DNA from: Sulfurimonas marina
Lineage (GTDB): Bacteria > Campylobacterota > Campylobacteria > Campylobacterales > Sulfurimonadaceae
Reading direction: 5' to 3'
Assembly: GCF_014905095.1 (NCBI RefSeq)
Contig: NZ_CP041165.1
Location: 992,001-1,056,000 of the forward strand
DNA: 64,000 nt
Shown here: piece by piece, positions 18,065 through 20,782 of the stretch
How positions within the stretch are numbered: the stretch's first letter is position 1
How the letters are laid out: each line of letters begins with the position of its first letter
Program-made: the position numbers and the translations under genes
Notes under the pieces: model-generated
What the model was told of the DNA's origin: nothing
What the model saw: the letters and a program-made list of their open reading frames with translations, nothing else
The model's database searches: none

Positions 18065-18867
18065 GTTTTGGATTGTTGGTAAAAAAGTTTATTAGCTTCT
18101 TTTTTGAGCCTATAGGGATAGTAATAACACTGTTGCTTCTAGGGTTATACTTTCTTTATACAAAAAGAGTTTATAGAGCGAAAAAGTTCTTTTTTGGAAC
18201 CATTTTGAGTCTCCTATTTTTTTCCTATCCTCCGTTTGCAAATTTTTTAGTAAGCGGTTTGGAAAACCAGTATCCGAAGTGTGAGTATAGAGATGAAATC
18301 AAGTATATCCATGTTCTTGGAAACGGACATACTACCGATAAATCGCAGCCTATATCTTCTCAAATTACAAATGACGGGACAAAGAGAGTTTTAGAGGGGG
18401 TGATTCTGCATAGAAACATTCCTGATTCCAAGATCATTTTTACAGGGTTTGCAGGACGGACAGACACGCCAAATGCGATTATGAATGCAAAACTTGCTTT
18501 TGCTTTGGGTGTAGATGAAAACTCTACGATCGTAAATCCTCAACCTGAAGATACAAGAGAAGAAGCAAAGTTTACAAAAACAGTAGTAGGGGAGAAACCT
18601 TTTGTGCTTGTAACATCGGCATCACATATGCCGCGTGCTATGATGCTGTTTGAATCACTCGGTATGCATCCTGTAGCTGCACCTACAGCTTTTTATAAAG
18701 ATGACGACATCAGTTGGCTAAAAGCACCGAGTGCTCATGCATTTTTGTTTCAACACTTGCAATGCATGAGTATGTCGGCATTCTTTATGCAAAGATTAAA
18801 GCAGTTTTTTCATAAGCTCTATGTGGTAAGATTCCTGGAAGTTGATAAAGTCGAAAAACTTACTTAG
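18061..18867 (+). CDS. ElyC/SanA/YdcF family envelope protein
   Basis: 268 residues: two N-terminal membrane helices (about 15-35 and 42-62), then a DUF218 (YdcF-like) domain. The features are YIHVLGNGHTTD near residue 80, KIIFTGFAGRTDTPNAIMNAKLA, the EDTREEAKFTK segment typical of the family, and VLVTSASHMPRAMMLFESLG. E. coli ElyC affects peptidoglycan and lipid-carrier metabolism at the inner membrane. Coupling to the membrane hydrolase upstream supports an envelope role. The last 72 bases overlap the end of the convergent ferritin-like gene, an unusually long coding overlap; both frames look real. Confidence 0.85.
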   Translation: MSFGLLVKKFISFFFEPIGIVITLLLLGLYFLYTKRVYRAKKFFFGTILSLLFFSYPPFANFLVSGLENQYPKCEYRDEIKYIHVLGNGHTTDKSQPISSQITNDGTKRVLEGVILHRNIPDSKIIFTGFAGRTDTPNAIMNAKLAFALGVDENSTIVNPQPEDTREEAKFTKTVVGEKPFVLVTSASHMPRAMMLFESLGMHPVAAPTAFYKDDDISWLKAPSAHAFLFQHLQCMSMSAFFMQRLKQFFHKLYVVRFLEVDKVEKLT

Positions 18868-19599
18868 TTTTTCATCTTTAATAGCATCGCTTAACTCTTT
18901 ACACATCTCTTTTGCAGCTTCCTCTTCAGCTATACCGTCGTGAACAAACTTCTCTAGATCTTTTACGATATAAGTTAGTTCATGAAGTTGTCTTGGAAGT
19001 GCTAAGATACCAAGACGAGCCATCATGTTTCCAAAAGATTTGAGATGAAAGTGTGATTCATCTACCAGGTCTTGAAACACGTTAAAATGTAGAGCATTGT
19101 TTGTTCGTGTCTGCATATAGGCATAGACTAAAATAAGCTCATATTCTTTATATGACTCTTCAAACAAAAACATCGTTAAAGCATCAATACTTGACTGATC
19201 AAGATTTTCCCATTCCCTTTTCATATTAAAGGCTGTGATGGCCTGATTGTTCTCATTAACAGCCAGGAGTTGTTCAATATATTCTAAAAGGTAATCATCA
19301 TCAGTTTTGAGACGTTCACCCAAGATCGAAGCAGGGTAGAGTGTTTGTGCCTCTTTTATTTGCTCTTTAAGGGTGTTTAGAACTTCAAATACAGAATTGT
19401 GCTTAATAAGTTGCCATTCACGATCGTAGTTGTAGTTATCGTTGTTTTCTAAGATGTCGTCTCCGAGCCATTTCATATGGCGAAATGCTATTTGGGAAAA
19501 GTCATATAGGTGTGACTTTATTGTTTCATCGTTGATCGCAAAAGAGGCAAATAAAATGCCGAGCCAGAGTTCATGTTTCTTTTGATATGTTTTATTCAT
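18796..19599 (-). CDS. Ferritin-like diiron-type protein
   Basis: A 267-residue, mostly helical protein. I chose the ATG at 19599 because its ATGAATAA overlaps the upstream stop, the same coupling style used elsewhere in this operon. Possible metal-ligand helices are FLFEESYKEYELILVYAYM, LVDESHFHLKSFGNMM (ExxH) and FINFQESYHIELMKKL (ExxxH/ExxY), plus an early NDETIKSHLYDFSQIAFRHM. This pattern of Glu and ExxH in paired helices is that of ferritin-like/rubrerythrin-type diiron proteins. Coupling to a NifU-like scaffold suggests a role in iron or Fe-S handling (inference). It is not a classical ferritin, and the ligands need a structure model. The 3' end overlaps the convergent elyC-like gene by 72 bases. 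Confidence 0.6.
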   Translation of the reverse strand: MNKTYQKKHELWLGILFASFAINDETIKSHLYDFSQIAFRHMKWLGDDILENNDNYNYDREWQLIKHNSVFEVLNTLKEQIKEAQTLYPASILGERLKTDDDYLLEYIEQLLAVNENNQAITAFNMKREWENLDQSSIDALTMFLFEESYKEYELILVYAYMQTRTNNALHFNVFQDLVDESHFHLKSFGNMMARLGILALPRQLHELTYIVKDLEKFVHDGIAEEEAAKEMCKELSDAIKDEKLSKFFDFINFQESYHIELMKKLL

Positions 19600-20059
19600 T
19601 TTCAGTTTCCTCTTCAGTAACCTCACAACTCTCTTTCATTTTAAACACATGCAGCTCTTCATCTGCACCGTTAAGTCTGTTTTCATAGTTTTTTATCGAA
19701 GCCATAAATGCAGTAAATACAAGGTTGGCACATGTTTGTTGCTGTTGGGACATCTTCCCGAGTTTTTCATTCATCTTTTGAATTGCTCTGTTTGCATACT
19801 CGATATCATTTGTTTTTATCATCTCTGAATACATTGAACCGATTACAACCGTATCTTGGCATCCGTTTGTTGCAAAACGTACATCAGTGATAGTCTCTCC
19901 ATCAAGCTTTGTATAGAAGATTACATACTCTTTTGTTTTTTCATCAAGTGCTACACCGACACCGTCTGCATCATCAAGTTTTCCGTAGTTTTTCGGGTCC
20001 ATTAAATGTTCCAGCGTTTCAGGGTTTACACCTTCTGGCATCTTTACATTTTCAAACAT
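19592..20059 (-). CDS. NifU/IscU-like scaffold protein lacking one cluster cysteine
   Basis: 155 residues similar to the N-terminal (IscU-type) domain of NifU: EHLMDPKNYGKLDDADGVG at 17-35, then TNGCQDTVVIGSMYSEMI with Cys67, and QTCANLVFTAFMASI with Cys110. IscU scaffolds bind [2Fe-2S] with three cysteines, but the first, normally in a (A)CGD motif near residue 37, is replaced here by ALD (37-39). The Asp is kept. A Cys145 in the acidic C-terminal tail (KESCEVTEEETENE) is extra. It may carry, deliver or regulate clusters without being the housekeeping scaffold. It is coupled to the ferritin-like gene by an 8-base overlap and follows truA by 12 bases. Confidence 0.75.
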   Translation of the reverse strand: MFENVKMPEGVNPETLEHLMDPKNYGKLDDADGVGVALDEKTKEYVIFYTKLDGETITDVRFATNGCQDTVVIGSMYSEMIKTNDIEYANRAIQKMNEKLGKMSQQQQTCANLVFTAFMASIKNYENRLNGADEELHVFKMKESCEVTEEETENE

Positions 20060-20071
20060 TACAACTCCTTT

Positions 20072-20782
20072 TTAGTATTTCACTTTAGCCAAGTACAAAC
20101 CGTTTGCAGGTGCCGGTTTGAGTCTATGATCTTTGCTACCGTCAAGCTTCTCTTTGATCTGTTGTGCGCTCAAGTCTAGAAGTGCACCCGCCATAAAGCG
20201 GATTTGTGTACGTAAAAAACCGTTTGCTTCAAAGTAGAGGATAATAAGGTCCTGATGTTTGTATGCAAACGCTTTATATATCTCTCTTACACTGCTTTTT
20301 GTGTCACTTCCTGTTTTCATAAAGTTTTTAAAGTCATGTTGACCGATAAAAAGTTTGATCTTTTGTTGGAGTGTATTGAAGTTTACTTCATTAACAAAGG
20401 TGATAAAGTCATTCTCAAACGGATTGGATTCTCCCACTTTGATTACGTATCTGTAAACTCTCGATTTTGCTCCATAGCGGGCATGAAAATCATCTGCAAC
20501 TTGGAAGATACGTTTTACGTGTATAGTTTTTGGAAGCATCTCATTAAGTACTTGTTTGAGTTTTGTAAGATCATCCCAAAAAGGGGGTAGATCAAAGTGT
20601 GCTACCTGGTAAGAAGCATGTACACCTTTGTCTGTTCTCCCGCTTGCAACAGTTTTAGAAGTGATTCCCAGCTGTTTTAGCACATTTTCTAGCTGTCCAA
20701 AAATAGTATTTTGAGAACTTTTTTGGATCTGTGAACCCAGAAAGTGGGTCCCGTTATATGAAAGTACTACAGCTACACGCAT
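20072..20782 (-). CDS. truA: tRNA pseudouridine(38-40) synthase
   Basis: The 236-residue enzyme isomerises uridines 38-40 of the tRNA anticodon arm. The catalytic motif VASGRTDKGVHASYQVAHF (nucleophilic Asp in RTDKG) is at about 41-59, and the C-terminal half has FEANGFLRTQIRFMAGALLDL, typical of TruA. The length is normal. The start codon directly follows the stop of the upstream LptF/G-like gene. It belongs to the long minus-strand operon. Confidence 0.97.
   Translation of the reverse strand: MRVAVVLSYNGTHFLGSQIQKSSQNTIFGQLENVLKQLGITSKTVASGRTDKGVHASYQVAHFDLPPFWDDLTKLKQVLNEMLPKTIHVKRIFQVADDFHARYGAKSRVYRYVIKVGESNPFENDFITFVNEVNFNTLQQKIKLFIGQHDFKNFMKTGSDTKSSVREIYKAFAYKHQDLIILYFEANGFLRTQIRFMAGALLDLSAQQIKEKLDGSKDHRLKPAPANGLYLAKVKY

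Follow-up and report, generated by a model that had tools for sequence, protein, structure and literature searches.

The locus examined here raises the question of what an IscU-type protein does when the first cysteine of its cluster site is missing and a ferritin-like protein is encoded immediately behind it. The window, a stretch of 64,000 nucleotides from Sulfurimonas marina (contig NZ_CP041165.1, positions 992,001 to 1,056,000), carries both genes on the reverse strand. The upstream gene (19592–20059) encodes an IscU/NifU_N-like protein of 155 aa, in which T42 and E44 replace the Cys and Asp of the CGD motif and which carries Cys67, Cys110 and, in its tail, Cys145. The downstream gene (18796–19599) encodes a two-bundle ferritin-like protein of 267 aa with putative diiron ligands E152, E181/H185, E226 and E256/H259 in its C-terminal bundle. 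The stop of the one and the start of the other share 8 bases on the reverse strand (19592–19599, ATGAATAA), an overlap that the first-pass annotation had described and that we confirmed. The longer frame initially given for the ferritin-like gene (18796–19626, 276 aa) was discarded, as its GTG start falls inside the upstream gene; the ATG in the overlap is the start that fits the homologues, and the 267-residue frame is therefore used throughout. A truA-like gene, named from reading its sequence, lies directly upstream of the pair (20072–20782, reverse strand) and is treated as context, not as part of the unit.

The pair is real and is conserved in some Campylobacterota, Sulfurimonas included, and it is its role that we infer. 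A ferritin-like gene follows the scaffold-like gene in 67 of the 70 named loci; of the three exceptions, two stop at a contig edge (L062 and L068), and the third (L073) has its first gene broken across two frames and gave no match for the ferritin-like gene. The ferritin-like gene was present in 80 of 397 Campylobacterota genomes, and the scaffold-like gene was located directly upstream on the same strand in 66 of these 80, so that the co-occurrence proposed earlier as a check on the coupling was indeed observed. Among the other 14 genomes, nine from family f5 together with G061 have no such partner (E 1e-10), while the rest comprise a contig edge (G316), a remnant of the gene (G199, L181), genes on separate contigs (G355) and a distant relative of a third type only (G349, type 3 below). 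In four of the ten without a partner (G004, G006, G028 and G061), the Pfam NifU_N search yielded the long NifU only. The reverse situation was seen in G330: its scaffold-like gene encodes all three cysteines, but no match for the ferritin-like gene was obtained there. The junction recurs as well: an overlap of 8 bases with the start codon at the junction was found in 40 of the 67 named pairs, and the exact ATGAATAA in 26. The named locus nearest to the window is also from Sulfurimonas, with 82% identity in the scaffold-like protein.

Three other accounts of this arrangement were considered and rejected. A pseudogene or an oddity of one genome was ruled out, as both genes are open in most of the 70 named loci, apart from an early stop in L058 and the split gene of L073; outside these 70, the remnant in G199 already mentioned is a further exception. 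Long open frames in some genomes raised the possibility of a gene fusion; in G288, the one case worked out, each match occupies a frame of its own. Conservation through a truA operon alone was rejected because 33 of the 70 named loci have truA directly upstream and 36 do not (in one the contig is too short), with the reserve that it lies further upstream on the locus in at least 10 of those 36. The distance correlation between the scaffold-like and ferritin-like proteins was 0.65, compared with 0.50 and 0.58 for the pair genes against truA (34 loci), values that lend weak support, since all of these genes are mostly inherited together. The 72,556 plasmid records searched by tblastn with the ferritin-like protein contained no match, and the single scan of genome contigs beyond the phylum set is of a kind that detects close relatives only.

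The scaffold-like protein exceeded the Pfam NifU_N (PF01592) cut-off of 22 with 64.2 bits and stayed under the NCBIfam equivalog cut-offs of NifU_clost (73.4 bits against 187.9), SufU (38.6 against 92.5), NifU (36.3 against 273.3) and IscU (31.9 against 192.4). The AlphaFold2 model, built from 47 sequences (the window protein and those of 46 of the 70 named loci), has the IscU fold with a pLDDT of 81.4, and its top PDB match in Foldseek was 7c8m, an IscU (E 7.7e-12). The IscU structures 2z7e, 9wfy and 4eb5 were recovered by phmmer at E 6.3e-18, 2.5e-18 and 9e-17, respectively. The tail of the model is poorly predicted, with pLDDT block means of 69, 48 and 37 past residue 130, and Cys145 is situated in that part. 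These results bear out the earlier description of an IscU-type protein with Cys67, Cys110 and an extra cysteine before an acidic tail, the extra residue being Cys145. Neither protein of the pair matched a rubredoxin, Bfd, hemerythrin-like or RIC domain in either Pfam or NCBIfam (to E 1).

The first-pass annotation had also stated that the first cluster cysteine is absent and had placed the gap at the ALD of residues 37–39. The absence was confirmed, but the placement was not: phmmer and profile alignments to the Aquifex-type and Archaeoglobus IscU, in which the loop is ungapped and with which MAFFT agrees, set the Cys of N-P-x-C-G-D (Cys1) against Thr42 and the Asp against Glu44. The counterpart of the CGD motif in the window protein is therefore the T-K-E of residues 42–44. 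Cys67 and Cys110 correspond to the second and third scaffold cysteines (Cys2 and Cys3), Cys145 stands before the acidic tail, and the scaffold His ahead of Cys3 corresponds to residue 109, a Thr in the window protein.

Conservation of this altered site was assessed over 123 distinct paired homologues, including two fragments (L058 and L170) that each miss some positions. The Cys1 column held Thr in 81, Asn in 26 and Ser in 15 of the 122 rows covering it, and Cys in none, counts that are of sequences and not of independent events, since many rows are closely related. The restored cysteine in relatives, which the first-pass annotation had named as grounds for refuting its proposal, is thus found in none of these 122. 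With the same caution on relatedness, Glu44, Cys67, Cys110 and Cys145 were each invariant (122/122 of the covering rows), and 97 of the 123 proteins contain exactly three cysteines, namely Cys67, Cys110 and Cys145. The residue preceding Cys3 was Ala in 50, Val in 37, Ile in 34 and Thr in one of the paired homologues. Position 39, part of the ALD, held Asp in 82, Asn in 34 and Ser in 6, the Asp being frequent in the window's family and not general. The paired proteins therefore lack the set of three cluster cysteines plus Asp at the scaffold positions.

The genome of the window encodes two longer NifU proteins elsewhere, with CGD, GC and HC motifs, and a Pfam NifU_N match at E 1.3e-40 or better was obtained in 14 of the 15 genomes searched, the long NifU of G145 reading as broken. 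In a tree of 49 proteins, in which the long branches of type 3 and of NifU come together, the 14 housekeeping NifU rows split from the Cys1-less rows at 100/100. Together with the adjacency and the two longer NifU genes elsewhere, this agrees with the earlier proposal that the pair is distinct from the NIF scaffold, and there is good support for a conserved two-gene unit separate from that housekeeping scaffold.

The Cys1-less rows contain a further clade (100/100), here called type 2, of proteins of 175 to 184 aa that come mostly from the window's own genus. The type was counted as 16 profile matches ending at model position 100 to 103, 11 of which were read (L116, L117, L118, L119, L182–L185, L187, L188 and L147). 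All 11 are without a scaffold cysteine, having neither Cys67 nor Cys110, and have a C-x6-C tail, and none is beside a ferritin-like gene; nine come from genomes that lack the ferritin-like gene, while G332 and G145 carry both the pair and type 2. As the type-2 proteins, without that neighbour, have lost both residues, Cys67 and Cys110 may be retained for the ferritin-like partner. Across the sequences compared, retention of the two scaffold cysteines seems to go with retention of the partner, G330 being the exception. The type-2 gene of L116–L119 adjoins a dCMP deaminase-like gene (named from reading). A third Cys1-less NifU-like type was noted at L121:4883-5365, L144:1426-1929 and L110:4423-4905, and in L121 and L144 it lies between genes resembling an NrdD-type anaerobic ribonucleotide reductase and its radical SAM activase, with a short gene just upstream (names from reading).

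The ferritin-like protein was modelled by AlphaFold2 from 41 sequences as two four-helix bundles (pLDDT 92.6, pTM 0.90), with the helices of the C-terminal bundle spanning residues 135–163, 169–196, 215–239 and 243–266. Bacterioferritin-type ligands follow the pattern Glu, Glu+His, Glu and ExxH along four successive helices. The C-terminal bundle follows this pattern by sequence, with E152, E181 and H185, E226 and E256xxH259, the spacing in helix 2 being E-x3-H and not ExxH; the full carboxylate/His set, whose absence the first-pass annotation had named as a refutation of its proposal, is thereby present by sequence. Across 131 distinct homologues, E152, H185, E226 and H259 were each invariant (131/131), E181 was found in 128 (Asp in the other 3) and E256 in 129 of 130, and Cys233 was nearly invariant (129/131). 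These residues probably suit one diiron site, located in the C-terminal bundle. The N-terminal bundle conserves His9 (122/122) and His41 (126/126), whereas position 38, three residues ahead of His41, where a carboxylate is expected, held Ala in 65, Glu in 22, Leu in 18 and others in the rest. With this carboxylate mostly missing, the N-terminal bundle looks degenerate.

The Pfam Rubrerythrin profile (PF02915) gave the window protein 20.9 bits, below the gathering score of 22.8, and matched 23 of 41 members of the ferritin-like family at E 0.01 or better. Searched against the PDB, the profile of the family matched 9viw_A, named 'Bacterioferritin', at E 3e-15 over positions 8–263, the next best match being at 0.0061. 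In VIA-align, ferritins, Dps and bacterioferritins aligned mostly to residues 127–267, with Z scores from 10.5 to 11.7, and the top row was 3hl1 at Z 13.2 over residues 1–203, levels that helical bundles can reach by chance, and Foldseek returned no match to the model at E < 0.001. The ferritin-like assignment accordingly draws on the profile match and the ligands and not on the structural scores. Elsewhere in the same genome, one Pfam Ferritin match and one Rubrerythrin match were observed.

Both folds are known, and what is new is their combination with an altered scaffold site that is kept over several families; nothing on the pair was found in searches of the open literature, which leaves out most subscription papers. 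The N-terminal scaffold of IscU/NifU, as in 2z7e from Aquifex, 9wfy (the same protein, judging from its residues) and 4eb5 from Archaeoglobus, shares the fold, sequence, Cys2 and Cys3 with the pair protein. It differs in that the pair protein has Thr, Asn or Ser for Cys1, Glu for the Asp and Ala, Val, Ile or Thr for the His, and has a gene of its own, coupled to that of a ferritin-like protein. The pair thus shows the extent to which an IscU site can change while its remaining residues stay invariant. The Aquifex-type IscU, with Cys1 intact, also has a tail cysteine before its acidic tail, about one residue off Cys145. On the ferritin-like side, 9viw_A (306 aa) has matching E-S-x-F-H and Q-E-x-Y-H motifs, and in the profile alignment its N-terminal bundle keeps carboxylates that are absent from the window protein. 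In bacterioferritin and the ferredoxin Bfd, too, a small Fe-S protein is encoded beside its ferritin-like partner, but Bfd has a different fold from IscU, whereas the small partner here is IscU-like. Rubrerythrin carries a rubredoxin domain, to which the window ferritin-like protein, itself below the PF02915 gathering score, gave no match.

The closest functional likeness is to YtfE/RIC of E. coli, a diiron helical-bundle protein that is reported to bind both IscU and IscS and to donate iron (PMC8117158). RIC is described as hemerythrin-like (PMC9268430), whereas the window partner is ferritin-like, and the IscU served by RIC is the housekeeping scaffold. By analogy, we tentatively favour, with rather less than even confidence, a reading in which iron would pass from the diiron protein to a site for metal or a cluster in the scaffold-like protein, much as YtfE provides iron to IscU. 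The two proteins would bind each other; Fe(II) would enter the ferritin-like protein at the diiron site of its C-terminal bundle, probably with O2 or peroxide as oxidant, and iron would then move to the IscU-like partner. Bound there, as iron or within a small Fe-S cluster, by Cys67, Cys110, Glu44 and perhaps Cys145, it would in turn be handed on, and the pair would act like YtfE feeding IscU, beside the housekeeping NifS-NifU and not in its place. If this is true, donor and scaffold would form a naturally occurring pair, fixed in the genome, that would allow the transfer of iron to be tracked directly. The nine f5 genomes and G061, which carry the ferritin-like gene alone, indicate that this protein can do without its partner, and G330 argues against the cysteines depending on the partner. 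The Pfam Ferritin and Rubrerythrin matches elsewhere in the genome likewise weigh against this reading. An unlikely refinement is a mobile-lid site, in which the tail cysteine would take the place of Cys1 and the cluster, loaded by the bound ferritin-like protein, would be closed by Cys67, Cys110, Cys145 and Glu44. The low confidence of the modelled tail argues against Cys145 completing the site, and the tail cysteine need not replace Cys1, since type 2 has one without Cys67 or Cys110 and the Aquifex-type IscU has one together with Cys1.

The main rival to iron donation is a redox couple, in which a lasting [2Fe-2S] cluster on the IscU-like protein would reduce the diiron protein, which in turn would remove peroxide or O2 or release stored iron. 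Bacterioferritin with Bfd and rubrerythrin with its rubredoxin part are the models for such a couple, and the relative named Bacterioferritin (9viw) speaks for it, but neither protein of the pair matches a rubredoxin or Bfd domain. The replacement of Cys1, Asp and His alike is in its favour, and a more stable cluster is thinkable, since the Asp39 of IscU, which is said to destabilise its cluster (PMC2854127), is replaced; a fourth ligand would nevertheless be needed, as only three cysteines are conserved. None of the nine f5 genomes, in which the ferritin-like gene stands alone, has ccoN, and the 17 others searched all do; this distribution hints at a link to O2 and would suit a role of the scaffold-like gene connected with O2. 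The f5 genomes are, however, one family and hence one event, and ccoN is present in G061, whose ferritin-like gene has no partner, and in the pair-less G252, G319, G200 and G266. The ferritin-like gene of G355, which stands beside peroxiredoxin-like and Fur-like genes (L171, names from reading), also agrees with a redox role. Taken together, we regard the redox couple as doubtful.

Two further readings concern the IscU-like protein itself. It might act as a sulfur carrier, receiving persulfide from NifS on Cys67/Cys110 (or binding zinc, like SufU) and relaying sulfur by way of its tail cysteine, the ferritin-like protein serving as acceptor or guard. The two retained IscU cysteines, the invariant tail cysteine (122/122) and the nearly invariant Cys233 of the ferritin-like protein are in keeping with this, but the SufU score is far under its cut-off, and Cys1, proposed as the first sulfur acceptor in IscU (PMC2854127), is lost; sulfur transfer is held to be quite improbable. 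Alternatively, the IscU fold may have turned into a structural or regulatory adaptor that serves the ferritin-like protein as a subunit for binding or sensing and handles no metal. The 11 type-2 proteins read, without Cys67 and Cys110, indicate that the fold can persist without scaffold chemistry; a mere adaptor would not need cysteines that are invariant over several families, as they are in the paired proteins, and this role is also held to be very unlikely.

The surroundings of the pair vary among the loci, and the following gene names derive from reading the sequences. Apart from truA, the neighbours seen include genes resembling coaBC and ABC exporters. In L105, L107, L109, L122, L181 and L186, from families f4, f9 and f11, a phosphatidylserine decarboxylase-like gene follows the ferritin-like gene, and L031, L043, L060, L070 and L071 each have a gene for a YgiQ-like radical SAM protein, transcribed divergently from the pair or lying near it. 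In the stretch L171:120-2089 of G355, the ferritin-like gene is convergent with the peroxiredoxin-like gene, with the Fur/PerR-like gene beyond. In the three f5 loci read (L111, L112 and L113), genes resembling those of 2-oxoacid:ferredoxin oxidoreductase converge on the lone ferritin-like gene.
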